Assembly: GCF_010731775.1 (NCBI RefSeq)
Contig: NZ_AP022590.1
Location: 4,588,001 to 4,652,000, forward strand
Reading direction: 5' to 3'
DNA from: Mycobacterium mantenii
GTDB taxonomy: Bacteria > Actinomycetota > Actinomycetes > Mycobacteriales > Mycobacteriaceae
DNA length: 64,000 nt
Below the pieces are notes generated by a model. That model was not told the origin of the DNA. It worked only from the letters and a program-made list of their open reading frames with translations, and did not search any database. Below, in pieces: positions 11,930 to 34,181 of the stretch. The position numbers and the translations under genes are program-made. The stretch's first letter is position 1, and each line of letters begins with the position of its first letter.

Positions 11930-12427
11930 TGTCGCGGTACTCGCATTCCAGCTGCGCCCAGCGCCGGCCGGTTTCTCGCCGCCGGCGATCATGTCGGCGG
12001 GAGCGTCGGTGTAGGGCGGTCGGCTGGGGCCCGGGTCGATCAACCCTGCGGCGCGGAATCGTGCCCGCCCCACCGGGATGCTGTAGTCCATGAAGCGCGA
12101 CATATCGCCACCGAATTGCGGCGCCAGCGCCCAGTTGACCTTCTCGGAGATCGCCGCTGCCGCGTTCCAGTCCCGTGAGAGCACGGCCCTGGAGAGTGCC
12201 GCCAATGGTGAAGGGGCACAGGCCACGTTGCCCGACCAGCAGGCGGTGGCCAGGTCAGGGGATTGCTTTGCCGCGGCATACAGTCGCTGTCGAGGGGCAG
12301 TACGGCAACCTTGTCGCCAACAGCTTCGATATCGCGTTGCAGCGTCGGCCCGCCGGCGTGTTTGGTCGCCACGATCTGCGGCAGATCGGCCAGTTTCTGG
12401 TAGGCCTCGACACTGATCTTGCCTTTG
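11930..12427 (-). pseudogene. Truncated, frameshifted copy of phdJ-like aldolase (direct repeat, copy 1)
   Basis: A 498-bp stretch nearly identical to 33224-33723, which is the 3' half of the intact phdJ-like gene. Two single-base deletions are visible, one in the TTTC(C)TCG stretch near 11972 and one in the ATA(C)CAGTCG stretch near 12281, plus a few substitutions. Codons before 'GKISVEAY' are absent: homology stops at 12427, where unrelated sequence leads into the MarR gene. The copy lacks the start and the first ~150 residues, although the catalytic-Lys region remains. It is non-coding and serves as one arm of a long direct repeat. Confidence 0.9.
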
Positions 12428-12441
12428 GCGCGGCACCACCT

Positions 12442-13032
12442 CTACCACGCAACCTGGTCTTTACGTCGATTGGGGCGCGCCCGACCGCGAAAGAGAAGCA
12501 AATCGGAACCATCGGTGGTGGACGGGCTGTTCTGCTCGATCGACGCAAGGAAACGCTCAAGTAGGGATTCCAGTTGAGCTTTCTGTTTGGGGGTCAGGCC
12601 ATCCATCAGCTTGTGTAAGTATGCCCAGTGACCGGGTAGGAATTTACGCAGAAAGGCGCGCCCTTTCTTGCCGATTTGAATGAGGAACGAGCGACGGTCA
12701 TTCGGGTTGGAGATGCGTTCGACATAACCACGCCGGGCTAACTCGTTGACGACACCGGTGAGATTGGCAGGGCGAACCGACACCGCCTGACCCAGCGCGC
12801 CCATGGTCACGGGTTCGGGTGCGCGGTCCAGCACGGTCAAGATATTGAGCTGGGCGGTGTTGAGTCCATGCGGCTGGAGTTCAACGGCGTGTGCACGCTC
12901 GAAGGCCGTCGCGGTGCGAACCATCGCCAGAGTCAGGCCGAGGACGGTCGTATCGAAGTCGGGACCTTCGTGGTTGGCCGCCAAGGCGACCTGCTCAGTG
13001 ATCGACTGCGGCCGATCTGGTCGTAGCGCCAT
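12442..13032 (-). CDS. MarR-family transcriptional regulator
   Basis: A ~196-aa winged helix-turn-helix repressor. The start chosen is the ATG at 13032 (MALRPDRPQ) because GGAGG lies 7 bases upstream; an ATG at 13038 is too close to it. Recognition helix region: MGALGQAVSVRPANLTGVVNELARRGYVERISNPNDRRS, in which the wing residues DRR are conserved. It has a broken paralogue at 6220-6679. A pair of inverted repeats lies 54-77 bases upstream of the start, suggesting autoregulation. The last few codons run into sequence joined to the truncated aldolase copy, so the C-terminus may be altered. Confidence 0.9.
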   Translation of the reverse strand: MALRPDRPQSITEQVALAANHEGPDFDTTVLGLTLAMVRTATAFERAHAVELQPHGLNTAQLNILTVLDRAPEPVTMGALGQAVSVRPANLTGVVNELARRGYVERISNPNDRRSFLIQIGKKGRAFLRKFLPGHWAYLHKLMDGLTPKQKAQLESLLERFLASIEQNSPSTTDGSDLLLFRGRARPNRRKDQVAW

Positions 13033-13085
13033 TAGCATGCCTCCGGGATGCAGGAGTGGATAGCTGTGACCTTGCACGTTATCGG

Positions 13086-13109
13086 ACCGAAACTATCGGT
13101 AACTAGTTA
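13086..13109. promoter_or_regulatory. Tandem inverted repeats upstream of MarR gene (candidate operator)
   Basis: ACCGA-AACTA-TCGGT (13086-13100) is directly followed by the perfect palindrome TAACTAGTTA (13100-13109). Both lie in the leader of the MarR gene transcribed to the left. MarR proteins bind such short palindromes in their own promoters. No matching site was checked elsewhere, so binding is inference. Confidence 0.45.
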
Positions 13110-13199
13110 GATTAGGCAGAGGGTGTCTCTAGTTTCGTGGAACCGGAGGTGGCGGTGCCCTGCTCGCGACGTGCCGTGTGGTTGGGTCGCGCGTTCCGC

Positions 13200-13400
13200 C
13201 AAGAACGCCGAGAGCTTGGGCACCACCATGAAGATGAGTAGCCAGATTCAGTCCGTGGACGCGAGCGCGCCCGCGATCCCAGAGCGGGTCAGCGTGGCGA
13301 TGGCCGAAACCTGCCCGGCCGAGCTGTCCACCGGGATCTATCCGGGCCGGATCTGGCCGCATTGATAATCGACGGGGTGTATTTCGCCGAATCCGTTAAC
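13200..13400 (+). pseudogene. IS256/mutator-family transposase remnant
   Basis: Two frames give pieces of an IS256-type transposase: IPERVSVAMAETCPAEL (about 13275-13325) and then, after a frameshift, RDLSGPDLAALIIDGVYFAE (about 13332-13392). The second resembles the DLSGLDL-ALMIDGVHFAEH region around the first catalytic Asp of mutator transposases. The rest of the gene is missing. The remnant abuts a different transposase fragment on the other strand at about 13400. Confidence 0.55.
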
Positions 13401-13617
13401 GCATCGTAGGAACACTTCGGATTGCGCTGCCGGCGAGGCTGTTTGGCGATCTGCCGGACCGCCCCGGTGGCCGGGTCACGGCCTTCAACCGGCGCGCGCA
13501 TAGTCACGCGACCAGCAGGTGACCTCCACCATCTGATCCAGATCTGTCCCTATCGGCCTTTGAGGCCTTCACATACGCCTTGGCGAACTTCGCGGTGATC
13601 TCGGCACGAGACGACAT
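13400..13617 (-). pseudogene. Integrase-type transposase N-terminal remnant
   Basis: From an ATG at 13615-13617 the minus strand reads SSRAEITAKFAKAYVKASKADR, then after a frameshift a stretch with VEVTCWSRDYARR, and after another shift RQRNPKCSYDAL. This pattern (a RAE-TAKYA start, VTGWSRDNARR, then YSYDAL) is that of the N-terminus of an actinobacterial integrase-core transposase family. It is cut at about 13400 against the IS256-like remnant. It is non-functional. Confidence 0.5.
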
Positions 13618-14259: not shown

Positions 14260-14265
14260 TAAAAT
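14260..14265 (+). promoter_or_regulatory. Candidate -10 element of the mce operon
   Basis: TAAAAT fits the mycobacterial TANNNT -10 consensus and ends 12 bases before the ATG at 14278. Transcription would start within about 5-6 bases of the start codon, giving a nearly leaderless mRNA. No Shine-Dalgarno sequence precedes 14278, which agrees with this. Confidence 0.35.
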
Positions 14266-14277
14266 CATCCCGGCTGT

Positions 14278-15084
14278 ATGGGGTTTCGCCAGGCGAACCG
14301 CGCTGAAAAGGCGGCGTTGATGTTGCAGCCTAATGTCCTCAAACCCCTTCGCGCCCTTGGCGATTTTTTTGCGCTGGCGCTAGATACTTTGCTCCAGATG
14401 CCGCGGCGACCGTTCGCCGGGCGCGAGTTGATCCTGCAGAGCTGGTTTGTCGCCAGGGTGTCGCTCGCGCCGACGGTGATGCTGTCAATCCCGTTCACTG
14501 TGCTCACAGTGTTCACGCTCAATATTCTGCTCGTCGAGTTCGGCGCCGGCGACTTTTCTGGCAGCGGCGCCGCGCTTGGCACGGTCACGCAGATCGGCCC
14601 GATCGTGACGGTGTTGGTCGTTGCCGGAGCCGGCGCGACATCGATGTGCGCCGACCTCGGTGCTCGCACCATCCGCGAAGAACTCGACGCGCTGAGGGTG
14701 CTCGGGATCAACCCGGTCCAGGCGCTCGTGGTGCCCCGGGTCCTCGCCGCAACGTTCGTCTCGTTGCTGCTGTCGGGGGTGGTGATCCTGACCGGCCTCA
14801 TCGGTGGTTTTGGTTTCTCGGTCTTCGTCCAACACGTGACACCGGGGGCCTTCGCGGCGGGGCTGACACTGCTCACCGGTGCGCCGGAGCTGGTGATCGC
14901 CTTGATCAAGGCCGGGCTTTTCGGTCTGACCGCCAGCCTGATCGCCTGTTACAAAGGCATTTCGGTTGGGGGCGGCCCCGCCGCGGTCGGCAACGCGGTG
15001 AACGAAACGGTGGTCTTCTCTTTCATGTCGCTGTTCGTCATCGACGTCATTGTCACCGCGGTTGGTGTTAAGGCCACGGCATGA
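14278..15084 (+). CDS. yrbEA: YrbE-family MCE permease A
   Basis: A 268-aa integral membrane protein of the MlaE/YrbE family, the permease of an Mce lipid importer. Family signatures seen are RRPFAGRELILQSWFVARVSLAPT near residues 42-65, GAGATSMCADLGARTIREELDAL near 118-140 and several hydrophobic segments after it. The MlaE-type coupling helix sequence EELDALRVLGINPVQ contacts the ATPase MceG, which is not in this window. The ATG at 14278 lacks a ribosome site but may be leaderless; an ATG at 14320 with AAGGCGG upstream is the alternative. The end overlaps yrbEB by ATGA. Confidence 0.93.
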   Translation: MGFRQANRAEKAALMLQPNVLKPLRALGDFFALALDTLLQMPRRPFAGRELILQSWFVARVSLAPTVMLSIPFTVLTVFTLNILLVEFGAGDFSGSGAALGTVTQIGPIVTVLVVAGAGATSMCADLGARTIREELDALRVLGINPVQALVVPRVLAATFVSLLLSGVVILTGLIGGFGFSVFVQHVTPGAFAAGLTLLTGAPELVIALIKAGLFGLTASLIACYKGISVGGGPAAVGNAVNETVVFSFMSLFVIDVIVTAVGVKATA

Positions 15085-15941
15085 GCTTCAACAACGTTGC
15101 AAGCCAGCGGTTCCCGCGGCTGATGCGGCAACTGGATGGGTGGGTTAGCGGGTGGCGGCGGATCGGCGCGCAGGCGCGTTTCTACGCCCGAACGCTACGC
15201 GCCGCCTCGAACGCCGTCACCGACTACCAAGGTGAGACGCTGCGCATGATCGCGCAGATGGGCTTGGGCGCTGGAGCGCTGGCGGTCATCGGCGGCACGG
15301 TGGGCATCGTCGGTTTTCTGACCCTGTCGGCCGGTTCGCTTGTCGCGATCCAGGGATACAGTTCGCTCAGCGGAATCGGTGTGGAGGCTTTGACCGGTTT
15401 CGTGTCCGCGTATCTGAATGGCCGCATCGTCACTCCGCTGACGGCGGTCATTGCCCTGTCGGCGACCATCGGCGCCGGCGCGACTGCGCAATTGGGTGCG
15501 ATGCGGATCAACGAGGAGATCGACGCGCTGGAGGTCATAGGAATCCGCTCGATCGCTTACCTGGCCTCCACCCGGGTCATCGCCGGCGTGATTGTGGTGA
15601 TCCCGTTGTATTGCATCGCGCTGTGGATGTCGTTTCTGGCTGCCCGATTCGCCACAACATTTGTCTACGGCCAGTCAACCGGTGTCTACGACCACTATTT
15701 CCACACGTTCCTTCAGTCGACCGACATCATCTGGTCGCTTTTCCTGGCGATTCTGATGGGCCTCGTGGTGATGCTGGTGCATACGTATTACGGATTCACC
15801 GCTTCGGGTGGGCCCGCCGGGGTGGGGGAGGCCGTCGGTCGGTCGGTGCGTACCTCCCTGGTCTCGGTGGTACTTGTCATTTTGTTCGCGTCGCTTGCCA
15901 TTTACGGGCGGAGCGGCAATTTCCACTTTTCGGGGGCATAG
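15081..15941 (+). CDS. yrbEB: YrbE-family MCE permease B
   Basis: A 286-aa second MlaE-type permease subunit, ATGA-coupled to yrbEA. The N-terminal amphipathic part (about residues 1-50) is followed by five or so membrane segments and the signature GAGATAQLGAMRINEEIDALEVIGI near residues 133-157. C-terminal segments VRTSLVSVVLVILFASLAIYG close the protein. It should form a heterodimer with YrbEA in the inner membrane. A 145-base gap with no recognised gene separates it from mceA. Confidence 0.93.
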   Translation: MSFNNVASQRFPRLMRQLDGWVSGWRRIGAQARFYARTLRAASNAVTDYQGETLRMIAQMGLGAGALAVIGGTVGIVGFLTLSAGSLVAIQGYSSLSGIGVEALTGFVSAYLNGRIVTPLTAVIALSATIGAGATAQLGAMRINEEIDALEVIGIRSIAYLASTRVIAGVIVVIPLYCIALWMSFLAARFATTFVYGQSTGVYDHYFHTFLQSTDIIWSLFLAILMGLVVMLVHTYYGFTASGGPAGVGEAVGRSVRTSLVSVVLVILFASLAIYGRSGNFHFSGA

Positions 15942-16086
15942 CGGTGATCTCGTGTTCTGGTTCTTACCTGGCTGGCCACATCGCTGGTGAGCTGGCGGCA
16001 TGGCCACTCGATGGGTTTGCTCACCCGCGTCATTTCAACGATGAAGTAGGTGTGGTGCGGTTTCATCGCTCCGTCCGGGTAGCGCC

Positions 16087-17469
16087 ATGGAATCCCTAGA
16101 CCCGGCAGATGGCCGCCACCTCGGGTGGTGGACGACCATTCTTTTCGCGGTCGTCATCGCGTTGATCGTTTTGGCGTGCGCATCGTTCAACGGGGCATTT
16201 CGATCGTTCGTCCCGGTAACGCTGACCTCTGACCGCTCTGGGCTGGTGATGGAGCCTGGCAGCAAGGTGCGACTGCGCGGAGTGCAAGTAGGTCAGGTCG
16301 GTTCGGTGACCGGGGGGACGGAACCGGTGAACCTGCAGCTGGAGATAGACGCCGATCAGGTCGAAAACATTCCGGCAAACATCGGAGCTCAGATCAGGGC
16401 CTCCACAGTATTCGGCTCCAAATACGTCGATTTGATCTATCCCGACCATCCCAGTGCCACGCGTATCTCCGCCGGAGCGGTGCTCCGGTCGCGCACCGTC
16501 AGCACCGAGATCAACACTGTCTTCCAGAATCTGGTTTTGGTGCTCGAGCAGATCGATCCCGCCAAACTAAACGCGACGTTGAGCGCCCTGGCCGAGGGCC
16601 TTCGCGGCGAGGGCAGCGCCATCGGGCAGGCCACCACCGACGCCAACCAGGTGCTGATGGCGCTGAATCCCCGAATGAGCACCATGCAGCAAGACTTTCG
16701 GTCGCTGCGCGGTTTCAGCGACGCCTACAGCGCCGCCGCACAAAACATCCTCACGACGCTATCGGCATTGAGCACTACCAGCTCGACCATTACCAGCCAT
16801 ACATCGGCGCTCGACGCGCTGCTGCTGAACACTATCGGCTTATCGGACGCCGGTACCAACCTAATCGGGCCCAACCGGAGCAACCTCATCCGCGGGGTCA
16901 ACCTGCTTGAGCCGACAACGAATCTGTTGATGAAATACAACCCCGAATACACCTGCCTGCTACTCGGCGCCAAATGGTTCATCGACAACGGGGGTCGCGA
17001 CGCGATGGGCGGCGCCAACGGGTTCTCGGGGCTTCTTGACGCCACGGTGCTGCTCGGCGACGACCCATACAAATATCCCGACAACCTGCCCGTCGTTGCC
17101 GCCAAGGGAGGACCCGGCGGCAAGCCGGGCTGTGGATCGTTGCCCGACGCCAGTAAGAAGTATCCGATCCGTCAACTGATCACCAATACCGGCTGGGGCA
17201 CCGGACTCGACATTCGGCCCAACCCCGGCATCGGGCATCCCTGTTGGGCCGACTACTTCCCCGTCACCCGGGCCGTCCCGGAACCGCCGAGCATCCGGCA
17301 GTGCATCCCAGGGCCGGCGCCTGGGCCGATTTCCTACCCGGGGCCGCCGCCTAATGGAGCGCCGCTATACGCACCGGACGGGACGCCGCTGTATCCACCA
17401 CCACCTGGGGCGCCTCCAACCGATGCGCCGCCATCAACGCCGCCACAGATATCAGGAACGAAGCCATGA
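16087..17469 (+). CDS. mceA: Mce-family protein MceA
   Basis: A 460-aa Mce substrate-binding subunit. One N-terminal membrane anchor lies at about residues 15-33, then the MCE/MlaD domain at about 40-120 (SDRSGLVMEPGSKVRLRGVQVGQVGSV), then a long helical region typical of the needle-like tunnel, and a Cys-containing domain. The last ~50 residues are a Pro/Gly-rich tail (repeated PPP, GAPLYAPDGTPLYPPP) expected to lie near the cell wall. ATGA overlap with mceB. The specific mce paralogue number cannot be set from sequence alone. Confidence 0.93.
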   Translation: MESLDPADGRHLGWWTTILFAVVIALIVLACASFNGAFRSFVPVTLTSDRSGLVMEPGSKVRLRGVQVGQVGSVTGGTEPVNLQLEIDADQVENIPANIGAQIRASTVFGSKYVDLIYPDHPSATRISAGAVLRSRTVSTEINTVFQNLVLVLEQIDPAKLNATLSALAEGLRGEGSAIGQATTDANQVLMALNPRMSTMQQDFRSLRGFSDAYSAAAQNILTTLSALSTTSSTITSHTSALDALLLNTIGLSDAGTNLIGPNRSNLIRGVNLLEPTTNLLMKYNPEYTCLLLGAKWFIDNGGRDAMGGANGFSGLLDATVLLGDDPYKYPDNLPVVAAKGGPGGKPGCGSLPDASKKYPIRQLITNTGWGTGLDIRPNPGIGHPCWADYFPVTRAVPEPPSIRQCIPGPAPGPISYPGPPPNGAPLYAPDGTPLYPPPPGAPPTDAPPSTPPQISGTKP

Positions 17470-18494
17470 GAGACAACTTCGCCGGCGCCGCCTGGCGGCT
17501 CGGCGTCTTCGTCGCCGTCTGCTTGCTGGGTCTGTTCGCGCTGTTCGCGGTTTTCGGCCAGCTGCGCTTCCAAAGCGGGAAGACCTACAACGCCGAGTTC
17601 AGCAACGTAGGCGGTTTGCACAGCGGCGACTTCGTCCGCATTGCAGGCGTCGAGGTCGGCAAGGTCAAAGAGATCTCCATCAAGCAAAGCGCGTACGCGG
17701 TGGTCAAGTTCTCCGCCGACGACTCGGTGATTTTGACCGAGGGCACAAAAGCTGTGATCCGCTACGACAATCTGATCGGCGGCCGGTTCCTGGCCCTCGA
17801 GGAGGGCGCTGGCGGGGTCAAACAACTCAAACCGGGAGAAACCATCCCGCTGGACAGGACGGCGCCGGCGCTGGACCTCGATGCACTCATCGGCGGTTTC
17901 CATCCGCTGTTTCAGGCGCTGAACCCAGAACAGGTGAATGCACTGACCGGGCAATTGATTTCGGCGTTCCAGGGCCAGGGAGCGACGATCGGCTCATTTC
18001 TGGCGCAGACTTCAGCACTGACAAGCACGCTGGGCGACCGAGACGACCTGATCGGGCAAGTGATTGCCAATCTCAACATCGTGCTGGGGTCGCTGGGCGA
18101 TCAAAGCGGGCAGTTCGCAAAGGCCGTCGATTCCCTATCGGAACTGATGAAGGGACTCGCCGACCGAAAAACCGATATCAGCAACGGCGTGGCCTACATC
18201 GACGCGGCGTCTGCGTCGATCGCTGACCTACTCCAACAGGCCCGGCCGGCGCTGCAAAACACCGTGCGTCAGACGGATCGGGCCAGCGGGATCGTCGTCG
18301 CCGATCACGAGTACTTCGATGACTTCCTCAACACCCTCCCAGACGCCTACCAGCAGCTGGGCCGCCAAGGCCTCCACGGTGACTACTTCGGGTTCTACCT
18401 GTGCGAAGTGCTGCTCAAGCTGAACGGCAAGGGTGGCCAGCCGGTGTACGTCAAGCTGGCCGGCCAGCCCACAGGACGGTGCACACCCAGATGA
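17466..18494 (+). CDS. mceB: Mce-family protein MceB
   Basis: A 342-aa Mce subunit. There is an N-terminal membrane segment at about residues 10-32, an MCE domain at about 38-115 (FSNVGGLHSGDFVRIAGVEVGKV), and a helical region with repeated heptad-like spacing to residue ~280. It contributes one of six protomers to the Mce ring/needle. The ATG at 17466 overlaps the mceA stop, and the end overlaps the mceC ATG at 18491. Intact. Confidence 0.93.
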   Translation: MRDNFAGAAWRLGVFVAVCLLGLFALFAVFGQLRFQSGKTYNAEFSNVGGLHSGDFVRIAGVEVGKVKEISIKQSAYAVVKFSADDSVILTEGTKAVIRYDNLIGGRFLALEEGAGGVKQLKPGETIPLDRTAPALDLDALIGGFHPLFQALNPEQVNALTGQLISAFQGQGATIGSFLAQTSALTSTLGDRDDLIGQVIANLNIVLGSLGDQSGQFAKAVDSLSELMKGLADRKTDISNGVAYIDAASASIADLLQQARPALQNTVRQTDRASGIVVADHEYFDDFLNTLPDAYQQLGRQGLHGDYFGFYLCEVLLKLNGKGGQPVYVKLAGQPTGRCTPR

Positions 18495-19820
18495 AGTCCT
18501 TCGCCGAACGCAATTCCCTCGTCGTCGGCTCCGTCGGCTGCGTGGTGATCGCCGGGCTAGTGCTGGCGGCAACGCAGTACGACAAGCTGCCGTTTTTGTC
18601 CGGCGGCAACGGATATTCAGCTTATCTGGCCGAGGCTGGGGGTCTCAGGACCGGCGCTGCCGTGCAAGTATTCGGCTACCGGGTGGGCCAGGTGTCGGCC
18701 ATCGAGCTCGACGGGCCGCGAGTGCTGGTGAAGTTCAACGTCGCAAAGGACATCCGGCTCGGGGACCGCACCGAGGCCGCGGTCAAGACCAAAAGCGTGC
18801 TGGGCACCAAGGTTTTTGAGGTCACGCCCCGTGGCGATGGCGAGCTCTCGGGCACGATTCCTCTCGCACGGACAACACCGGCCTATCAGCTGCCTGATGC
18901 GCTCGGCGACTTGGCCACCACAATCAGCAGTTTGAAAACCGACCAGCTGTCCGACTCGCTGGCCACGCTGGCGCAGACATTTCAGGACACCCCGCCGGAG
19001 CTGAAGACCGCGGTCCAGGGCGTCGCTCGATTCTCCCAGACGATCGGTAGGCGCGATGCGCAGCTTCGCAACTTGCTCGCCAACGCCAGCAAAGTGACGG
19101 CCGTACTTGCCGAGCGCGCTAGCCAGGTCGCCAGTCTGATTGAGCGCACCAACGCGTTCATGGCGGAGCTGCAAACCCAGAGCAACGCACTAAATTCCAT
19201 TGCTTACCACGTCTCTGCGCTGGCCAAGCAGTTGTCGGGGTTCGTCGCCGACAACCGCGCCCAGCTGCGGCCGGCGCTGGACAAGCTCAACGGCGTCCTA
19301 ACAATCGTCGACAACCGCAAACAGCGGGTGCAGAAATCCATTCAGTTGCTCAACGCCTACGTGATGTCGCTGGGTGAGGCGGTGTCGGGAGCCCCGTTCT
19401 TCAAGGCCTATGTCGCCAACTTGCTGCCAGGGCAATTCGTGCAGCCGTTCGTGGATGCGGCGTTCTCAGATCTTGGCCTAGATCCCAACGTGCTGCTCCC
19501 CTCACAGCGCGTTGACCCGCCAGTGGGCCAGCCGGGAACACCGCCGCTGCCGATGCCGTTTCCGCGGACAGGCCAGGGCGGCGAGCCGAACCTGAGGCTG
19601 CCCGACGCGATTACGGGTAAGCCTGGCGATCCGCGTTACCCTTACCGGCCGCCGCTGCCCCAACCGCCGCCCGGGGGGCCCCCGCCCGGACCGCCCACCG
19701 GTTACCAGCCCCGCCGCGCCGGCGGCGCCCGCCACCTCGGTGCTGCAGTCACCCGACGGCGGGCTCGCAGAAGCACCGATGCCGGCCCTCGTTGGGCCGA
19801 GCGGAGGGGACGGACAATGA
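18491..19820 (+). pseudogene. mceC: MceC, frameshifted near the C-terminus and read through into MceD
   Basis: The ATG at 18491 overlaps the mceB stop. Residues 1-~395 are a normal MceC: membrane anchor ~10-28, MCE domain with EAGGLRTGAAVQVFGYRVGQV, helical region. In the Pro-rich tail the natural frame is lost: frame +1 continues as AAPAAPATSVLQSPDGGL and ends at TGA 19818-19820, overlapping the mceD ATG as every other junction does. The distance 18491-19820 is 1,330 nt (3n+1), so one extra base is present, possibly in the G6C5 run at 19673-19683 or the C4 run near 19710. Without correction the frame runs on into MceD as one 885-aa protein ending at 21148. Confidence 0.85.
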
Positions 19821-22287: not shown

Positions 22288-22288
22288 C

Positions 22289-25382: not shown

Positions 25383-25395
25383 CCACCCGGAAAAG

Positions 25396-26096: not shown

Positions 26097-26797
26097 GGGC
26101 GATGCCGTGCACTTCGATCATCTACAGAGCTCTTCCCTGTCCAGCAGCACGTTCATCACATCTACCGGTTAGGGCGTCTCCGTGTGTCACCGTCAAACTG
26201 GGGCGACGTTTGCAGTCGTATCCCTGTAGCTAGCGTGGAGTCTAGAATGTTATCTTTCTGAACTATATCGGCCCCGGTACCGTTGAGGTCAAAGAGTTTT
26301 GAATATTTAGGGCTGGCAGATTGTCTGAACGTGGCGGGCTGCCACTTGCCGATTCGGCGGGGTAGTTGACGGTCGTCTTCGACTCTTGACGTCATTTGGT
26401 TATGAAAGTAAAATATCACCGTGGTGCACAGCGCGACGACGGTGTTTGGCGACTCGGGTGCGACCGTCGTGCGGCGCGGGGAGCGAAGGATGCGTCACAG
26501 CGTTCCAAACTGGCAGTCCCACCGGCTCAATCACACCGTCACGGAGTACGGTCCCAGGTGGAGCCAGGAGGGCATGCAGACGCAGGTTCTACGCCCTCAT
26601 AATCCCCTCAATGCGTCGGGCGCTCATCGTTGTAGGACGCGGAGGCGCCGCACCACGAGTTCGCCGATCAACGGCGCCTGCAGACACCGACCACAGCACC
26701 ATCGGCACCGCCGATGGCTCCGCCTGTTAGAGTCCCGTCGTCATCGGAACGTAATAGTTACAACTCGCCACGAAGAGCACGACAGAGCCCGCAGGGT
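26097..26797. other. Gene-free stretch
   Basis: About 700 bases between the P450 fragment and the LLM oxidoreductase gene. I see no domain or motif in any frame. A patch at 26398-26415 (GTTATGAAAGTAAAATA) resembles 13735-13751 (GTTATGAAATTAAAGTA), which may be chance. Confidence 0.45.
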
Positions 26798-26863
26798 ATG
26801 ACCGGCGATGACCGGTTGCGTGGAGTATCGCCCCAGCCGGCCGCGCGCGACACTCCCTTGAAC

Positions 26864-27919
26864 ATGCGCTATAGCCGGACGAAACGCGTAACTCCGGAGC
26901 TGGGCGCTTACGTTCTGCCAGGACGGATTACGGATGTGCGGCCAGGCCTACAGCAAGCCGCCATCGGCGAGCGCATCGGCCTGGGCAGTGTCTGGGTTTC
27001 TGAACGCTGGGAAACCAAAGAGATCGGCGCCACCCTGGGTGCCCTCACCCAAAACACGTCACGCGTGAGGCTGGTGGCCGGGGTCACGCACTTCGGTACG
27101 CGGCACCCCGTCGTTCTGGCCGGAATGGCATCGACCTTGCAGGCGTTGTCGGACAACCGCCTAATACTCGGCTTTGGGCGCAACGTAGCGGGCATGTGGC
27201 GGGACCTCGGGATCCCCACGCCGGTCGGTGCCGCGATCAGGGATTATGCCGACATCTATCGTGCGCTGTGGCGCGGTGAAACCGTTACCTATGACGGCCC
27301 AGCCGGCCGCTATCCCCGAATACGTTTGACTGACACTCCCGCCGTGGCGCCTCCGCTGATCCTGGCGGCAATCGGGCCGAATTCTCTGCATCTGGCCGGC
27401 GCACACTTCGACGGTGCAGTGCTGCATCCTTTTCTGACGACCGAGGGAGTCGCCCGGTCTGTTGCAATGGTGCGCGATGCGGCCAAGGAAGCCGGCCGAG
27501 ATCCGGCGACGGTTAAAATCTACGCCGAGGTCGTCGTCGCGCCCGACTGCAGCGACGACCAAATCACCAAAATCGTGCGTGCTCGCGCCGCAACCTACTT
27601 CACCCTGCGGGACCTAGCCCGTCATATCATCACCGCAAATCGATGGGATCCATCGCCAGTGCACCAACTCCTGGCAGATCCACGCTTCGCGAACCTTGAA
27701 CTACAAGCCGGTACCCCCGAACAGTTGCGCGCCCGCTCACTTGAAGCGGTCTCTCTAGTCCCAGATGGCTGGATATCCACGGGCGCGGCGATCGGATCAG
27801 CAGCACAGGTCGCCGCGCGACTGCATGAGTACCGCGCAGCAGGAGCCGACGAGATTGTGCTGCACGGAACGACGACCGACCGGCTCGGCCCGCTACTGAA
27901 GGTCTACGCGAAATCATGA
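26864..27919 (+). CDS. LLM-class flavin/F420-dependent oxidoreductase
   Basis: A 351-aa luciferase-like TIM-barrel enzyme, probably using F420. Visible features: AAIGERIGLGSVWVSERWETKE near residues 26-47, the conserved VAGVTHFGTRHPVVLAGMASTLQALS near 68-93, and FGRNVAGMWRDLGIP near 101-115. The start is uncertain: an ATG at 26798 would add 22 residues with no family similarity, so 26864 is preferred. It is ATGA-coupled to the phosphotransferase gene. The pairing suggests a shared catabolic task, such as handling a ketone or CoA-linked intermediate. Confidence 0.85.
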   Translation: MRYSRTKRVTPELGAYVLPGRITDVRPGLQQAAIGERIGLGSVWVSERWETKEIGATLGALTQNTSRVRLVAGVTHFGTRHPVVLAGMASTLQALSDNRLILGFGRNVAGMWRDLGIPTPVGAAIRDYADIYRALWRGETVTYDGPAGRYPRIRLTDTPAVAPPLILAAIGPNSLHLAGAHFDGAVLHPFLTTEGVARSVAMVRDAAKEAGRDPATVKIYAEVVVAPDCSDDQITKIVRARAATYFTLRDLARHIITANRWDPSPVHQLLADPRFANLELQAGTPEQLRARSLEAVSLVPDGWISTGAAIGSAAQVAARLHEYRAAGADEIVLHGTTTDRLGPLLKVYAKS

Positions 27920-29040
27920 ACGAAATCACTCCAGACCACACGTATCAAGCCCTCGCGGCATGGCTGGCGGACAAGTTACCGGCAACCGATATCTGCGTCA
28001 CCGCACTCACTCTCGCTGGCACCGGCAATTCCGCGCAGACTTTCTTCGCTGATGTAAGCTGCGTCCAAGGCGGCACACCAACCGAGCTTGAATTGGTCAT
28101 CCGCCGACAGAATCAGGGCAGCGACTTTTTCCTCGACGCAGACCTTGATCTCCCTTACCAGATGATGCGCGTCGTCGCGGAATGCTCCGATGTGCCCGTG
28201 CCGCGCATGATCGGCATCGAGCGGGACGGGGCTGTGCTCGGTGCGCCTTTCCTGGTTATGCACAAGTGCGGAGGTCGCGTCGTTCACCAGGCCCCCAACT
28301 ACAACGTGCAAGGATGGTTGAAGGACCTGCCCACAGATCAGCGCGGAACAGTCTGGCGTAATGGGCTGCACGTGCTTGTCCGTATCCACCAACTTGATTG
28401 GACTCAGGGATTCGACTTCCTGAACCAGCCCGCACGCGGAGCCCCTGGACTCGACCAATACCTGCACATGGTTGCCGATTGGTATCGGTGGGCGCGCGGC
28501 AACCGGGAACACCCCGTGTCTGACGCAGCTATCGATTTTCTCATGCGCGAGTGTCCCACCGATGCCCCGGTTGGGGTCCTGTGGGGTGATCCGACGTCGG
28601 CGAACATGCTGTTCCGCGACGACCTGACGGTAAGCGCCGTAATAGATTGGGAGATGGCCGCTCTTGGCCCACCCGAGGTCGACGTCGCCTGGTGGCTGTT
28701 CTTCGATGATCTTTTCAGCCTCGGAATGGGTGTGTCCCGTCTCGCCGGGCTTCCGGACCGCGCCACCACGATCGCTTGGTACGAAACGTATGCGGGGACC
28801 AAGCTCGCAGACCTGCACTGGTACGACGTATTGGCCGCCCTGCGGATGGCGATTATCGGCATGCGCGCCGCCGACCGCCAGATCGGCTTGGGCCGCATTC
28901 CCGAAAGCACCACTGCCCGTACACATTCTCCATTCATGAGGATGCTCGCCGCCAAACTGGGTGAGCCGCAACCAGAGGTCGGACAGGACTTCATCGACCT
29001 GATGAGGGCAATGGGGATGGATGAACCCGGCCCGGCGTGA
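27916..29040 (+). CDS. Aminoglycoside phosphotransferase-fold (APH) family protein
   Basis: A 374-aa protein of the APH/ChoK kinase-like family. The catalytic loop VLWGDPTSANMLF (Asp near residue 219) and the DFG-equivalent VIDWEMAALGPPEVDVAW near 239-256 are intact. Mycobacterial members of this length beside oxidoreductases and acyl-CoA dehydrogenases are often annotated as phosphotransferases of unknown substrate; antibiotic resistance should not be assumed. It overlaps the LLM gene by ATGA and is followed 46 bases later by a methyltransferase. Confidence 0.85.
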   Translation: MNEITPDHTYQALAAWLADKLPATDICVTALTLAGTGNSAQTFFADVSCVQGGTPTELELVIRRQNQGSDFFLDADLDLPYQMMRVVAECSDVPVPRMIGIERDGAVLGAPFLVMHKCGGRVVHQAPNYNVQGWLKDLPTDQRGTVWRNGLHVLVRIHQLDWTQGFDFLNQPARGAPGLDQYLHMVADWYRWARGNREHPVSDAAIDFLMRECPTDAPVGVLWGDPTSANMLFRDDLTVSAVIDWEMAALGPPEVDVAWWLFFDDLFSLGMGVSRLAGLPDRATTIAWYETYAGTKLADLHWYDVLAALRMAIIGMRAADRQIGLGRIPESTTARTHSPFMRMLAAKLGEPQPEVGQDFIDLMRAMGMDEPGPA

Positions 29041-29086
29041 CGGCCGGCAATGGGAATGGAACTAGGGCAGTGGAAAGGGCAAAAGT

Positions 29087-30028
29087 ATGAACCGTTCAGA
29101 CAACGACACCTGGGATCTGGCATCTAGTGTGGGAGCGACTGCGACGATGGTGGCTGCGGGCAGGGCCCGTGCCGCCAATGCGGAGGATCCGCTGATCGAG
29201 GACCGGTTCGCTGAGCCGCTGGTGGCCGCAGTCGGCATCGAGTTCTTCACCCGGTGGGCTACTGGTGAGCTTGACGCCGCCGAGGTTGATCTCCCGAACG
29301 CCCCATGGGGCCTGCAGCGTATGACCTACATGATGGCGGCGCGCACCCGTTACTTCGACGCGTTCTTTTCCGATGCGGCCGCTGCAGGCATCCGTCAGGC
29401 GGTGATCTTGGCTTCGGGCTTGGACGCACGTGGCTACCGGCTGTCGTGGCCGTCCAACATGGCGGTGTTTGAGATTGATCAACCGCAGGTTATCGAATTT
29501 AAGGTGGCCACGCTGTCCGACATGGGCGCCGAACCCACGGCTGATTTGCGGGCGGTTGCGATTGATCTGCGCCATGATTGGCCGACCGCGCTGGTGCAGG
29601 CCGGTTTCGATGCTAGCCTGCCCAGTTCCTGGCTCGCCGAGGGTCTGCTCGCCTTCCTGCCGCCTGAGGCTCAGGACTGCTTGCTGGACAACATCACCGC
29701 ACTCAGCACTGTCGGCAGCCGGCTGGCGGCGGAGATTTTTATGAACGCGCCGGACGGCGCTGCACTAGCCGAGATGCTGCGAACCTCTACTCAGCGGTGG
29801 CGTGACCATGGACTCGACCTCGACCCCATCGAATTGGGCTATGACGGCGAACGCAACGATGTCGCAACCTATCTGGACAGCCACGGCTGGCGTTCGGTCC
29901 GTACTTCGCTGAGCCAGTTGCTGGCCGACAACGGACTACCGCCGCTACCAGACAATGACGACGCACTGTTGCTTCGCGAGAACTACTACTGCACGTCGAT
30001 CTTCGGGAACGAGACCAGCGGCAGCTGA
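29087..30028 (+). CDS. SAM-dependent methyltransferase, mycobacterial TIGR00027 type
   Basis: A 313-aa class I methyltransferase of the family expanded in mycobacteria (leucine carboxyl methyltransferase-like). The signature opening [20 protein letters not shown] is at residues 6-25. [11 protein letters not shown] follows near 31-41, the SAM motif [14 protein letters not shown] near 106-119 and [11 protein letters not shown] near 129. The ATG at 29087 is preceded by AAAGGGCAAAAGT. The substrate is unknown for most of the family. It is the last intact gene before the IS3 element. Confidence 0.9.
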
Positions 30029-30695
30029 GCACCTCGACCAGGTGGGCGTGCTCTAGCGAATGCCCTAACCGCTGCGTCCAAGGACGGCACCGTCCTCTTC
30101 GACGACCCCCACGGCGGACAGCACCGCGACTCCCGAGACCCGCGTAGCCACCCTGTTTGGTCCAGTGATGTATTGACATTGAATGATCTTGCGGCACAAG
30201 CCCTTCCGGGATCGGGGAGAAGAACGCGAGATGGCGTGTCGAAATGAGGCCAGCCATCACATCTACCTTGAGCGGCGGATTGGGTGCTCTAGAGCCAGTG
30301 TGGGTGCCCCGGCGTGGTTAACGGGGGAGTGTCTTCGTCACTGAGCGGCCACGCGACAAGGCCGCCGCCACTGACGAACTCGCCAACAGGCGACAGGTCT
30401 CCGTACATGCCGGGGCCGGTTCAGGATGGCTGTCGCTCGATATTGGTCAACCGAATGCATGATGTGTGGAGGTCGAGCCAAGCTGCGCCCCTCGGAACGC
30501 AATCGTTTTCCTGCAGACCGGTGACCGCGCGACGGGCCATGGATCGCCTGTGCCGTCGACAACGAGATCCGCCCAGCTGACTCCTTGCTTCGGGTCGGCG
30601 CGACCAGGACCGCACATTGGGTCGCAGCTCCCGCAACTCCGCACTCCTCCAGCCCGCCCATGCTGTCAACGGCAACCGAAAGTCGTAACCAAACC
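30029..30695. other. Gene-free stretch before the IS3 element
   Basis: About 670 bases with no recognisable coding or RNA feature; short open frames on both strands have no domain and no ribosome site. It probably represents old rearranged sequence on the left flank of the IS3 element. Confidence 0.45.
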
Positions 30696-30710
30696 GTAGG
30701 TCAGGTCAGT

Positions 30711-30848
30711 GTGCCGTCGAGTGAATCGACTGAGTTACGCGCGGCTCGCCGTCGGATCCGCGAGCTGGAAACCGAGTTGGCGATTGTGCGCCAGGCCGCG
30801 ACGTTTCTCGGGGAGGACAAGCCCCGCCCAAAAGGATCTACCCGGTGA
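30711..30848 (+). pseudogene. IS3-family OrfA, C-terminal part only
   Basis: A 45-codon frame reading VPSSESTELRAARRRIRELETE then LAIVRQAATFLGED, the leucine-zipper end of IS3-family OrfA. The upstream helix-turn-helix half (normally ~50 more residues) is absent; similarity stops at about 30700 where the 13-base repeat lies. Its TGA overlaps the GTG of orfB. Confidence 0.7.
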
Positions 30849-31711
30849 TCGATCGACTCGTCGACGCCGGGGCGTCCGTGGATCGCTGCTGCCTCATTCT
30901 CGGTGTGACGCGCCAGAACTACTACAAACACAAGCGCACGCCGACCACGCCGACGGCGCTGCGGCGGCAATGGTTGACCGGGTTGATCCGCGAAGTGCAC
31001 GTAGCCTCTCGGGGCACCTACGGGTATCGCCGTGTGCATGCCGAGCTCACCCTGGGTATGGGTATTACGGTGTGTCCGCGCACGGTATCGGTGCTCATGA
31101 CCCGCGCCGGCATCTACGGGCTCCCCGGGCCCGTCCGGGTCAAGCGGCTACGCGGCGTGGTCACTGCTGATGATCTGGTCAATCGCAAGTTCCACCGTCT
31201 CGCACCAAATGAGTTGTGGGTAACCGACATTACGCAGCATCGAACCCGTGAAGGGTGGCTGTACTGCTGCGCGGTCCTGGATGCGTTCAGCCGCAGGATC
31301 GTGGGCTGGTCGATCGACTCGCGGGCTGACTCCAGCTTGGTGGTCAACGCACTGGACATGGCGATCCGCAACCGCCGCCCAGCCGCCGGAGGGATTGTCC
31401 ATGCTGATCATGGAACCCAGTTCACCTCTTGGGTTTTCGGTGAGAAGATCCGCGCTGCCGGGCTGGTGCCGTCGCTCGGCACGATCGGTGACGGCCTGGA
31501 CAACGCGATGATGGAGAGCTTCTGGTCCTCGATGCAGATCGAGCTTCTCGACCGCCAGAAGTGGAAGACCCGGGTAGAGCTGGCCAACGCGATCTTCGAC
31601 TACCTCGAGATCTTCCACAACCGCCGCCGACGCCATTCCGCGCTGGGCTATCGCACCCCGATCGAGTACGAACTATCCTTTGCCAACGACACCCTCACCG
31701 CCGTCAGTTAG
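30845..31711 (+). CDS. IS3-family transposase OrfB (DDE integrase core)
   Basis: A 288-aa transposase. N-terminal HTH_21-like region (residues 1-95, with SRGTYGYRRVHAEL), then the rve catalytic core: D in WVTDITQ near residue 127, D in HADHGTQF near 185 and E in MMESFWSSMQIELL near 221, ending HNRRRRHSALGYRTPIEYE. The GTG start overlaps the orfA stop. In intact IS3 elements the active protein is an OrfAB fusion made by -1 frameshifting, so this ORF alone may be inactive. Confidence 0.93.
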   Translation: MIDRLVDAGASVDRCCLILGVTRQNYYKHKRTPTTPTALRRQWLTGLIREVHVASRGTYGYRRVHAELTLGMGITVCPRTVSVLMTRAGIYGLPGPVRVKRLRGVVTADDLVNRKFHRLAPNELWVTDITQHRTREGWLYCCAVLDAFSRRIVGWSIDSRADSSLVVNALDMAIRNRRPAAGGIVHADHGTQFTSWVFGEKIRAAGLVPSLGTIGDGLDNAMMESFWSSMQIELLDRQKWKTRVELANAIFDYLEIFHNRRRRHSALGYRTPIEYELSFANDTLTAVS

Positions 31712-31844
31712 CTACCACCACTGGAACCCAACAGGTAGGTCAGGTCAAGGTGTCACCTATTCATGCAGCAGACCCATTCGTCATTAGCTTTGCGATCCCG
31801 TCGCTTATGCTGTCGAACTGCTGTAGGGCGCAGATGAATGTCCG

Positions 31845-31887
31845 TGGCCATGAGAAGGTCCCCGTTTGTGGCCAGTAGGAAGTCCCC
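31845..31887. repeat. IS21-type multiple terminal repeats (left end)
   Basis: Two 19-base units, TGGCCATGAGAAGGTCCCC (31845-31863) and TGGCCAGTAGGAAGTCCCC (31869-31887), agree at 15 of 19 positions and are 24 bases apart. Repeated terminal transposase sites of this kind occur just outside istA in IS21-family elements, and an istA remnant begins about 100 bases later. Confidence 0.5.
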
Positions 31888-31983
31888 ACTCCTTTGCGGG
31901 CCCGCGTGTCATTTCCGGGAGCTGTGGGCCTGGGCGGTGACGGTGATAGCGCCAACTGTCACCACACCGCCCAGGGAGCTCTA

Positions 31984-32994
31984 TTGAAGTCTGCAAGGGA
32001 GCGTATGAACATCATTTCTGCGTATCGCCAGGTCGGGTCGTATCGCGGCGCGGCCGAGCTGTGCGGCACGACGCATAAGACGGCCAAGCAGGTCATCGAG
32101 CGTGCCGAGGAAGGCGGACCGCGGCCACGGGAACCGCGACCACGCAATGTCGATGCGTTTGTCGAGCCGGTCGCGACTCGGGTCGAGAGTCGAAGGGCAA
32201 GATGTCGGCGAAGCGGATGTTGCCGATTGCCCGTGCGGCCGGTTATCAGGACTCGGCACGTAACTTCCGCCGGTGATGGCCGAGCAGAAAGTGTTGTGGC
32301 GCAACGCTAACCGGCATCAGCGGCGTCCTGCGGTGTGGTCACCGGGTGACTATCTGGTGATGGACTGGGCCCAAGCCGCACCGGGTTTGATGATGTTCTG
32401 CGCGGTGCTGGCGTATTCGCGGTGGCGGTTCGTGCGCTTCGCCGCTGACGAGAAGGTCTCGACCACGCTGGCGATGATTGCCGAGCCCTTTGAGGCGATC
32501 GGCGGGGTTCCGGCCAAGATCCTGGCTGACCGGATGGGCTGCCTCAAAGGCGGTGTGGTCGCCAATGTCGTTGTCCCGACACCGGATTACGTGCGGTTGG
32601 CCTCCCATTACGGTTTCGACCCAGATTTCTGCCACGCTGCCGATCCCCAATCGCAGAGCATCGTCGAGCATCTGTGCGGCTACGCCCAGGACGACCTCGC
32701 GATCCCGCTGCTGACCGAAGCCGCCCTGGCCGGCGAAATGGTTGATCTGCGTGCTCTCAACGGCCAGGCCGCGTCGTGGTGTGCGCAGGTCAACGCTGTG
32801 GTGCATGCGGAGATCTGCGCAGTGCCCGATGAGCGACTCGCCGAGGAACGCCGCGTCCTGAAAGCGCTGCCGTCGCTGCGGCTGGAGATCGGTGCCGGGT
32901 CGGTGCGCCGCAAGGTCGACAGCCTGTCCTGCATCCGATACGGCTCAGCCCGCTACTCGGTGCCCAAGCGCCTGGTGGGCACGACCTGCACGTT
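31984..32994 (+). pseudogene. IS21-family IstA transposase, frameshifted and truncated
   Basis: A TTG at 31984 begins KSARERMNIISAYRQVGSYRGAAELCGTTHKT, the IstA helix-turn-helix. After ~60 codons the frame changes to GKMSAKRMLPIARAAGYQDSARNF and then to a frame open from about 32270, with LVMDWAQAAPGLMMF (first Asp), ILADRMGCLKGGVVANVVVP and the region through RYSVPKRLVGTT. At about 32990 the sequence switches abruptly to a ferredoxin-reductase tail. The C-terminus and istB are missing, so the element is dead. Confidence 0.85.
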
Positions 32995-33188
32995 GATAAG
33001 CCGCGTGTCGCCGCGGTATTCAGCGACGACAGCGGAATGCTGCGCGGCGTCGAGGTCGATCGGCGGCGGTAGGTTCGATGGCCATTTCGATTCTTCCTCA
33101 GCCTCATCGGTGCCGAAGCCACACCCCTGCGACGCTCGACGAAGTCGAACAGCTACCTAGGATGGCGCTGAGCAAGACCCAAACGTAA
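32995..33188 (+). pseudogene. Ferredoxin reductase 3'-end remnant
   Basis: Reads DKPRVAAVFSDDSGMLRGVEV, then in another frame VRWPFRFFLSLIGAEATP, then LDEVEQLPRMALSKTQT to a TAA at 33186-33188. This matches the tail of the intact reductase at 2041-3288 (EKPRAAAIYSDDSGLLRG, then NWP, LIGAETT and ELEQLP) but is clearly a divergent paralogue. At least two frameshifts are present. The start is cut by the IS21 remnant. It lies tail-to-tail with the phdJ-like gene. Confidence 0.7.
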
Positions 33189-33194
33189 CCAGAC

Positions 33195-33209
33195 GCCGGA
33201 GATTCCGGC
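33195..33209 (-). terminator. Short stem-loop 3' of phdJ-like gene
   Basis: GCCGGA and TCCGGC form a perfect 6-base stem with a 3-base loop. On the minus strand it starts 6 bases past the stop of the phdJ-like gene and is followed by TTACGTTT after a few bases. It could act as a weak intrinsic terminator for the phdI-phdJ transcript. Confidence 0.35.
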
Positions 33210-33215
33210 AGGCGG

Positions 33216-34181
33216 CTACCGCTTGTCGCGGTACTCGCATTCCAGCTGCGCCCAGCGCCGGCCGGTTTCCTCGCCGCCGGCGATCATGTCGGCGGGAGCG
33301 TCGGTGTAGGGCGGTCGGCTGGGGCCCGGGTCGATCAACCCTGCGGCGCGGAATCGTGCCCGCCCCACCGGGATGCTGTAGTCCATGAAGCGCGACATAT
33401 CGCCACCGAATTGCGGCGCCAGCGCCCAGTTGACCTTCTCGGAGATCGCTGCTGCCGCGTTCCAGTCCCGTGAGAGCACGGCCCTGGAGAGTGCCGCCAA
33501 TGGTGAAGGGGCACAGGCCACGTTGCCCGACCAGCAGGCGGTGGCCAGGTCAGGGGATTGCTTTGCCGCGGCATACCAGTCGCTGTCGAGGGGCAGTACG
33601 GCAACCTTGTCGCCAACAGCTTCGATATCGCGTTGCAGCGTCGGCCCGCCGGCGTGTTTGGTCGCCACGATCTGCGGCAGATCGGCCAATTTCCGGTAGG
33701 CCTCGACACTGATCTTGCCTTTGAACGCGGCGGGATTGTCGTAGACAACGAAGGGAACACCAGGCAGTGCCTCTGTGAGATCGCCGTAGAACCGCACGAT
33801 CGCGTCGTCGTCGAGCGGGAGCCACATCGGGCGCCCCACGAACAGCCCATCGGCACCGGCGTGGATCGCTTCGCGCCCACGGGAAATGGTGTCGCGGGTA
33901 TTCAAGGTGGTGACACCGGCGAAGAATGGGACCCGACCGCGGATGACCTTGGCGATGCAGGTGGTGAAGGTGAGCCACTCGTCATGGGTGAGCGACGCGC
34001 ATTCGCCGAAAGTCCCAGTGGACATCACGAATTCGATGCCGGCGCCGATGACCTCCTCGATCATCTTCTCGGCCTCGGCTGTGTTCACCGTGTTGTCGGC
34101 GCGCCAGCTTCCTGCGTCACTGGTGGCCGGGGTGGGCACGATGCCCACCACCCCTCGGACGTCGGCTCGGGTGATGGTCAT
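33216..34181 (-). CDS. phdJ: Hydratase-aldolase of the PhdJ/NahE type (DHDPS superfamily)
   Basis: A 321-aa class I aldolase with Schiff-base K175 in IVATKHAGG and Y147 in VVYDNP; STGTFGECASL near residues 54-64 matches trans-o-hydroxybenzylidenepyruvate hydratase-aldolases (NahE) and trans-2'-carboxybenzalpyruvate hydratase-aldolase (PhdJ). With the cupin dioxygenase gene upstream it would split the ring-opened product of 1-hydroxy-2-naphthoate into 2-carboxybenzaldehyde and pyruvate. It overlaps the phdI-like gene by ATGA. Its 3' half (33224-33723) is duplicated at 11930-12427. The symbol is given by pathway analogy. Confidence 0.85.
   Translation of the reverse strand: MTITRADVRGVVGIVPTPATSDAGSWRADNTVNTAEAEKMIEEVIGAGIEFVMSTGTFGECASLTHDEWLTFTTCIAKVIRGRVPFFAGVTTLNTRDTISRGREAIHAGADGLFVGRPMWLPLDDDAIVRFYGDLTEALPGVPFVVYDNPAAFKGKISVEAYRKLADLPQIVATKHAGGPTLQRDIEAVGDKVAVLPLDSDWYAAAKQSPDLATACWSGNVACAPSPLAALSRAVLSRDWNAAAAISEKVNWALAPQFGGDMSRFMDYSIPVGRARFRAAGLIDPGPSRPPYTDAPADMIAGGEETGRRWAQLECEYRDKR
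33224..33723. repeat. ~500-bp direct repeat, copy 2 (3' part of phdJ-like gene)
   Basis: Matches 11930-12427 in the same orientation with two single-base indels and a handful of substitutions. Limits are the shared TGTCGCGG at one end and GCCTTTG at the other. The two copies are 20.8 kb apart and bracket the MarR gene, the mce operon and all insertion-sequence remnants of the window. Confidence 0.92.

Follow-up and report, generated by a model that had tools for sequence, protein, structure and literature searches.

Apparent exchange of two blocks within a PhdJ-type aromatic cluster of Mycobacterium mantenii that carries an mce operon

In the window (the whole stretch of M. mantenii DNA analysed, 64,000 nucleotides), an mce operon lies between two direct repeats of the 3' half of an aldolase gene. 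The comparison with related genomes is best read as a relocation inside one catabolic cluster, two blocks of which changed places, and it identifies the mce operon as an old, conserved companion of the PhdJ-type aromatic cluster. What looked like an inserted foreign mce operon is recast as a block exchange that took place within a conserved catabolic cluster and left a readable scar.

Gene content and gene order in relatives

The features of the segment and its flanks are collected in Table 1. The best NCBIfam matches of the aldehyde dehydrogenase (ADH) are OH_muco_semi_DH and HpaE, each under its curated cut-off. By similarity, the gene at the right end encodes a putative PhdJ-type aldolase, alignable over its full length with PhdJ 6dan (residues 3–317, E 1.6e-100); the substrate of PhdJ is trans-2'-carboxybenzalpyruvate. 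The cluster resembles phd-type aromatic catabolic genes in having an aldolase closest to solved PhdJ with a dioxygenase-family cupin gene adjoining, although the M. mantenii cupin scores under the curated gentisate and 5-aminosalicylate cut-offs. The MarR regulator shares 91% protein identity with the pre-mce MarR of M. numidiamassiliense. The mce operon, a YrbE permease pair followed by MCE-domain proteins, has the layout of actinobacterial mce operons, two YrbE-type permeases and then six MCE units, given in PMC1810536; unlike those, it is linked to aromatic genes, and its third and fourth MCE units form a single 915-aa reading frame with two MCE stretches (18401–21148).

Table 1. Coordinates of the segment, its joints and its flanks in the window.
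Feature	Position	Strand	Basis or remark
Aldehyde dehydrogenase (ADH), meta-cleavage type, left neighbour of copy 1	10469..11917	+	NCBIfam best matches
Copy 1, aldolase 3' half, broken	11930..12427	-	repeat listing and alignment of copies
Joint 1, aldolase interior fused to MarR-gene flank	12428..12441	.	comparison with M. numidiamassiliense
MarR-family regulator 2, intact, divergent from mce	12442..13077	-	profile match and relative
Two MlaE/YrbE-type permease genes of the mce operon	14278..15941	+
Six MCE units, named A–F by position	16087..23740	+
F420-dependent LLM oxidoreductase, APH-type phosphotransferase, SAM-dependent methyltransferase	26714..30028	+	block 93% in M. numidiamassiliense
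Joint 2, scrap zone	30293..33212	+	IS and gene remnants
IS3-type transposase	30845–31711		within scrap zone
IS21 istA remnant	31844–32986		within scrap zone
Ferredoxin-reductase 3' remnant	32982–33152		within scrap zone
PhdJ-type hydratase-aldolase gene, intact, 321 aa	33216..34181	-	closest solved structure PhdJ 6dan
Copy 2, 3' half within intact aldolase gene	33224..33723	-	repeat listing and alignment of copies
Double-cupin protein, gentisate 1,2-dioxygenase family	34178..35335	-
Right-hand catabolic block	36118..51303	+	wholly or partly between aldolase and mce in relatives

Besides M. mantenii, 13 of 395 other Mycobacterium genomes carry the aldolase, and the gene order was readable in nine. 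All nine of these have an mce operon downstream of the cluster, and in none of the 12 relatives examined does one adjoin the aldolase on the ADH side, the ADH itself adjoining the aldolase in 11 of the 12. The cluster is followed by mce in the closer relatives M. numidiamassiliense and M. rhizamassiliense, as well as in the more distant M. lacusdiani, M. vulneris, M. nebraskense, M. pinniadriaticum and the genomes G389, G177, G249 and G248. The order in relatives is ADH – aldolase – cupin – ring-degradation block – (other genes, MarR) – mce – oxidoreductase/APH/methyltransferase. In M. mantenii it is ADH – (aldolase 3' half) – MarR – mce – oxidoreductase/APH/methyltransferase – IS scrap – aldolase – cupin – ring-degradation block. 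Since mce is downstream in 9/9 relatives and on the ADH side in 0/12, the M. mantenii order is the derived one.

The correspondence with M. numidiamassiliense could be followed piece by piece. Window positions -2429 to 12434 equal 1197808–1212705 there, 33213–35304 equal 1212187–1214278, and 35619–49957 match up to 1229007. The MarR region 12436–13127 corresponds to 1237940–1238626 (92%), the mce region 13687–25334 is 90% identical, and 26360–30292 is 93% identical, its match running to 1254849. The blocks stand in opposite order and in the same orientation in M. numidiamassiliense and M. rhizamassiliense, where the MarR-to-methyltransferase block is 90–93% identical and begins 25 kb past the cut point of copy 1.

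An insertion or duplication event had been proposed in the initial annotation, with the segment regarded as unlike the catabolic genes outside it. The event itself stands, and the synteny comparison found the segment-free state: in M. numidiamassiliense, M. rhizamassiliense and a Mycobacterium MAG, the equivalent of 1965–12434 is followed directly by aldolase and cupin. Relatives carry the block downstream of the cluster, which speaks against a foreign insertion and leaves the supposed unlikeness to the catabolic genes unsupported.

In M. numidiamassiliense, 8.9 kb of other genes separate the ring block from MarR, and relatives of these genes (70–74%) lie to the left of the cluster in M. mantenii, so the order has changed more than once. 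In addition, the chromosomal site of the whole cluster differs between the two species.

The two copies of the aldolase 3' half

The two copies are the longest pair of direct repeats in the window (99%), with blocks at 11972–12271/33267–33566 and 12281–12427/33577–33723. Of 492 aligned bases across 11936–12427, 489 are shared by the copies. Copy 1 also shows two one-base deletions, at bases present in copy 2 and in the three relatives compared there. The aldolase stop codon is intact in copy 2 (minus strand, 33216–33218) and altered in copy 1, which is devoid of the 5' half of the gene. The alignment therefore bears out the initial annotation, which had described near-identical copies in the same orientation, the second in an intact aldolase gene and the first truncated and frameshifted just after the ADH.

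Chance is ruled out for a 495-base match of such quality. The single-contig genome (6,185,541 bases) showed two repeat sites and no third among the 40 of 100 candidates scored. With two candidates scored per genome, in a sample from a larger group, the 3' half was found in 14 of 396 Mycobacterium genomes including M. mantenii, the only one with it in two places. An assembly artefact is barely credible: the copies differ at several bases, the genome is a single contig, and joint 1 unites sequences that are each backed by relatives. Moreover, the copies have distinct flanks, and relatives back the sequence to the left of copy 1 and that to the right of copy 2, which makes a simple assembly slip unlikely.

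Each copy is 91.3% identical to M. numidiamassiliense. In the region of the copies, M. mantenii and M. numidiamassiliense are 91% identical and M. numidiamassiliense and the MAG 95%, and the ADH adjoining copy 1 is 94% identical between M. mantenii and M. numidiamassiliense. Import of a second aldolase allele was rejected, since copy 1 would then be expected to be native-like (about 94–95% to M. numidiamassiliense) and both copies are the 91% allele. Both share one lineage-specific allele, which fits the copying of a resident gene. Gene conversion could mask an imported allele, or make an old duplication appear young. Judging from their orientation and identity, the arms could recombine with loss of the mce block, so the repeat predicts an mce-operon loss that is easily scored.

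The joints and a possible path

At joint 1, the window up to 12434 corresponds to M. numidiamassiliense 1212705 and from 12436 onwards to 1237940, positions 25.2 kb apart there. No extended homology is visible at this joint and no IS was seen. The 2.9-kb scrap zone at joint 2 has no counterpart at the same place in the relatives fetched. Among the nine segment ORFs scanned, two carry rve (DDE transposase) domains; tyrosine or serine recombinase domains were absent from all nine. With only 69% identity to the resident gene, the ferredoxin-reductase fragment has diverged too far to be a recent copy of it, and it was discarded as a trace of a whole-cluster duplication. No genome among the genus-search candidates scored has this fragment beside the aldolase; one genus-wide search bearing on the scrap zone scored one candidate per genome and left 273 of 396 genomes unscored.

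On balance, we lean towards a tandem duplication pruned by deletions as the explanation of the block exchange. On this path, whose intermediate and sequence of steps we infer, a segment of about 43 kb (at the scale of M. numidiamassiliense) that began at the aldolase stop codon and ended beyond the methyltransferase would have been duplicated in tandem. The first copy would then have lost about 25 kb, from the aldolase interior to just past the MarR stop codon, which gave joint 1, while the second would have lost its mce end. On this reading, the 495-bp repeat would be the leftover of the first aldolase copy, not an IS target-site duplication.

A path of this kind is known from the same genus: DU2 of M. 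bovis BCG Pasteur, described in PMC2448323, is a tandem duplication of 100 kb, one copy of which has lost 64 kb internally. As expected of a DU2-like event, the repeat copies are in direct orientation and native neighbouring DNA lies between them, namely the M. numidiamassiliense downstream block over 12436–30292, with 30293–33212 unaccounted for. DU2 retains a 36-kb duplication, whereas in M. mantenii both copies would have been pruned, leaving only about 495 bp and a changed gene order. PMC3274525 describes tandem duplications of M. tuberculosis whose junction is 3 bp or an IS6110. The same-orientation exchange with a pseudogene scar also follows the tandem duplication–random loss model; in the papers found, the model concerns mostly mitochondrial genomes, whereas here it would apply to a bacterial catabolic cluster with an intermediate that is not observed. 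No genome with the tandem intermediate was found among the 396 Mycobacterium genomes, one per species. An exchange of blocks is an ordinary kind of chromosome rearrangement. The 69% ferredoxin-reductase fragment between methyltransferase and aldolase counts against the tandem path, and so do the extra order changes and the different cluster site in M. numidiamassiliense.

Template switching or fragment capture is a rather unlikely alternative. A broken fork or a staggered break in the aldolase would have acquired the MarR–mce–methyltransferase block from 25 kb downstream with the scrap attached, end fill-in would have doubled the 495 bp, and the original mce copy would have been lost then or later. 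The lack of extended homology at joint 1 suits this account, no large intermediate is necessary, and end joining is active in mycobacteria, but a stagger of 495 bases would be very long. Since the end structure is the same as that of duplication plus deletions, no sequence evidence here favours template switching.

Campbell-type integration, the mechanism implied by the insertion idea of the initial annotation, is improbable. Here, the resident aldolase gene would have taken in, by recombination, a circle made up of an aldolase 3' fragment, MarR, mce and the IS scrap. Such an event would leave a truncated and an intact gene as direct repeats. Besides, no second genomic copy of the IS remnants in the scrap was found among the candidates scored, so this zone could have been put together elsewhere, and two close relatives carry the cluster at different sites. 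Nevertheless, in relatives the supposed insert is found downstream of the cluster, joints 1 and 2 would have to pre-exist in the circle, and only 4 of 72,556 plasmid records match 9500–34400 (near mode), with a coverage of at most 10% each, on which a plasmid origin of the segment was rejected. For the IS part by itself there are matches in 71 plasmid records, 68 at 60–80% and 3 at 80–90%.

Composite transposition carried by IS elements, which would make the repeats target-site duplications, would fit the IS3-type and IS21-type remnants at the right end. It is very improbable, since no IS was seen at the left joint, no second copy of either remnant was found in the genome (40 of 156 candidates scored), which also led us to reject IS–IS recombination, and 495 bp far exceeds IS target duplications, which are about 2–14 bp. 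Matching IS at both ends with a short target duplication were not found, nor was a tRNA gene at an end, as of an integrative element; the 64-kb window holds none.

The mce operon as companion of the cluster

In a 17-row tree, the mce operons beside the cluster in M. mantenii, M. numidiamassiliense, M. vulneris, M. lacusdiani, G177 and G249 belong to the same lineage, and the downstream mce of M. pinniadriaticum and G248 falls outside the M. mantenii group. The tree was built after leaving out seven loci as repeats of others, dropping rows with less than 80% query coverage and collapsing identical sequences, which leaves M. nebraskense and G389 without separate rows; the row of G248 is long and its placement unsure. 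The downstream mce of other lineage in M. pinniadriaticum and G248 counts against the duplication path. In G177, another mce operon follows about 10 kb past the first, and it groups with the M. pinniadriaticum mce. Either mce operons were repeatedly recruited to the end of the cluster or an old mce pair was thinned out, and the second operon of G177 weakens the former reading. A candidate second-mce remnant at the right end of M. mantenii (51307–51563) was discarded, as it matched nothing among the fetched loci.

The highest numbers of mce operons occur in PAH-degrading mycobacteria, as stated in PMC1810536, so that a link of mce with aromatic degraders has already been remarked on there. The literature search found no paper combining phdJ, Mycobacterium and mce, and among its matches no title or abstract opening names an Mce importer of aromatics. 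We tentatively suggest, with somewhat less than even confidence, that the mce operon might be the dedicated uptake system for the aromatic substrate of the cluster, and that selection might have maintained the partnership, including during the block exchange. The operon is thereby a concrete candidate for Mce-mediated aromatic uptake. The block exchange also sets an intact MarR gene next to the ring-cleavage genes.

The repeat pair and the aldolase locus in relatives

Alignment of the two copies confirmed the near-identical direct repeats of about 500 bp proposed in the initial annotation: they extend over ~495 bp in the same orientation, with 489 of 492 aligned bases equal over 11936-12427. 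Three substitutions and two deletions separate them, both deletions being of a single base and in copy 1, and the longest difference-free run is 180 bases (11975-12154). As also claimed there, copy 2 belongs to an intact aldolase gene (321 aa, nearest solved relative PhdJ, 6dan), and copy 1, a disrupted remnant of the gene's 3' part, sits immediately after the aldehyde dehydrogenase (ADH) gene. The own-genome search for the repeat returned two places only (40 of 100 candidates scored).

Both copies represent one lineage-specific aldolase allele, 91.3% identical to M. numidiamassiliense; over the same stretch, M. numidiamassiliense and the MAG share 95.0%, and the ADH gene beside copy 1 is 94.3% identical between M. 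mantenii and M. numidiamassiliense. Given so few differences within a shared lineage-specific allele, the duplication would be young compared with the divergence from M. numidiamassiliense, provided that gene conversion has not homogenised the copies. The aldolase-cupin stretch 33224-35900 is 80-91% identical to M. numidiamassiliense and the MAG, more diverged than most surrounding genes, hinting at past allele exchange.

Nine related loci were obtained by protein search of genome contigs. The predicted segment-free state was found in M. numidiamassiliense (L024), M. rhizamassiliense (L032) and MAG CO287 (L025), where the window is collinear from 1965 or 2038 to 12434 and the ADH side runs directly on into aldolase and cupin. 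Over 79 kb of this region (L083-L090) the two named species share 99.94% identity, very close for separate species. Searching 396 sampled genus genomes for the aldolase gave 22 with a match, of which 14 (M. mantenii included) carry its 3' half and the remaining 8 only short weak matches; with two candidates scored per genome, M. mantenii alone had two aldolase places. The left neighbour, examined in 12 of the 13 other carriers (all but G299), was ADH in 11, at tens of bases to ~0.8 kb, and an amidohydrolase in M. pinniadriaticum; mce stood on that side in none of the 12.

Coordinates of the features discussed (window positions unless stated)
Feature	Position	Remark
First MarR gene	6158-6712	beside ring-cleavage genes
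ADH gene	10469-11917	
Copy 1	11930-12427	
Joint 1	12428-12441	aldolase interior fused to MarR flank
Second MarR gene	12442-13077	
Third and fourth MCE units	18401-21148	
Scrap zone	30293-33212	IS3-type transposase, IS21 istA remnant, ferredoxin-reductase 3' fragment
Ferredoxin-reductase 3' fragment	32982-33152	between IS21 remnant and aldolase stop codon
Copy 2	33224-33723	
Ring-degradation block	36118-51303	
Region tied to M. numidiamassiliense cluster site	4433942-4439374 (M. mantenii genome)	

Place of the mce block in relatives, and the joints

Gene order was readable, with aldolase and mce operon on one contig, in nine of the 13 other carriers (G266, G268, G018, G248, G298, G389, G177, G249, G280), five of them read from named records paired with them by contig and coordinates: M. 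rhizamassiliense, M. numidiamassiliense, M. pinniadriaticum, M. vulneris and M. lacusdiani. In G086 aldolase and mce are on separate contigs, and in G358 and G390 the contig with aldolase ends too soon to show the order. In each of the nine, mce is found on the downstream side of the ring-degradation block and reads in the same direction; another assembly, from M. nebraskense (probably conspecific with G389), agrees. Six relatives have the operon after the counterpart of window 43.6 kb, and in M. pinniadriaticum and G248 it lies ~3.3 kb past that of 51.3 kb, where it is only 67-71% identical to the M. mantenii operon. The initial reading of an insertion is partly supported: it stands as to a duplication or insertion event and a segment-free state, but not as to a segment alien to the cluster, an mce operon being the downstream neighbour in every readable relative.

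On the M. numidiamassiliense contig, window 12434 corresponds to 1212705 and window 12436 to 1237940, the block continuing to window 30292 (1254849). The stretch 25335-26359 is ~0.8 kb longer than its counterpart there, and its sole match among the fetched loci is 35 bases.

Joint 1 falls 6 bases beyond the stop codon of MarR, and joint 2, on the methyltransferase-to-aldolase side, falls at that of the aldolase; therefore, both genes are intact. The gene order in M. mantenii appears to be an exchange of two blocks of the cluster. Tandem duplication, later pruned, would be a simple route to it with precedent in the genus, namely BCG DU2 (PMC2448323), with tandem duplications also on record in M. 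tuberculosis (PMC3274525); BCG DU2 went through duplication and then pruning, the route proposed for M. mantenii. One-step alternatives, template switching or capture at a break, would yield the same final structure as a pruned duplication. The rearrangement is of a known kind with a clear scar. The reductase fragment in the scrap zone is 69% identical to both the resident and the M. numidiamassiliense reductase genes.

Chromosomal setting of the cluster

The cluster occupies different chromosomal sites in M. mantenii and M. numidiamassiliense. The sequences bordering the M. numidiamassiliense cluster (1191339-1194822; 1259978 onward) are 2.4 kb apart in the M. mantenii genome (4436930, 4439374), ~138 kb left of its own cluster's left flank. 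Those bordering the M. mantenii cluster correspond to 1382667-1391277 and to 1393808 onward in M. numidiamassiliense. M. numidiamassiliense has 8.9 kb of other genes between ring block and MarR, relatives of which (70-74%) are left of the cluster in M. mantenii. Immediately to the right of mce, M. lacusdiani, G177 and G249 have a stretch like window -9098 to -8528 (left of the window). The cluster was thus rearranged more than once, and it either moved or was gained independently.

The right end, 48000-51303, is 85-94% identical to M. pinniadriaticum versus 74-82% to M. numidiamassiliense, with no match to the latter beyond 49957 in this stretch, and is probably mosaic.

Cluster content, mce lineages and regulators

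The cluster encodes Rieske dioxygenase subunits, a ferredoxin reductase, extradiol-type dioxygenases, a hydratase, ADH, the PhdJ-type aldolase, a cupin, an HsaA-like monooxygenase, FAA hydrolases and an AMP-binding (CoA-ligase-like) enzyme. Judged from PhdJ, a bicyclic aromatic substrate might be guessed.

A tree of one mce permease (17 rows, fetched sequences only) grouped M. mantenii, M. numidiamassiliense, M. scrofulaceum, M. vulneris, G177, G249, MAG RYN_181 and M. lacusdiani at 100/100. The cluster-side operons of M. pinniadriaticum and G248 (a long branch) fell outside, and a second operon in G177 (L142-L143), ~10 kb beyond the cluster-linked one, grouped with M. pinniadriaticum. Linkage of the cluster with some mce operon is thus conserved, either because such operons were recruited repeatedly or because an original pair lost a member. 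The result also offers a useful lead, an mce operon coupled with the breakdown of aromatics.

The third and fourth MCE units form one 915-aa frame with two MCE stretches, and are separate, slightly overlapping ORFs in all six relatives compared; the frame is either a natural fusion or a sequence error, and the fourth unit may have a start of its own. The first MarR gene aligns as three separate pieces and is apparently damaged in M. mantenii; M. numidiamassiliense also lacks one stretch, and the MAG CO287 match is in one piece. The second MarR gene is intact and now near the ring-cleavage genes.
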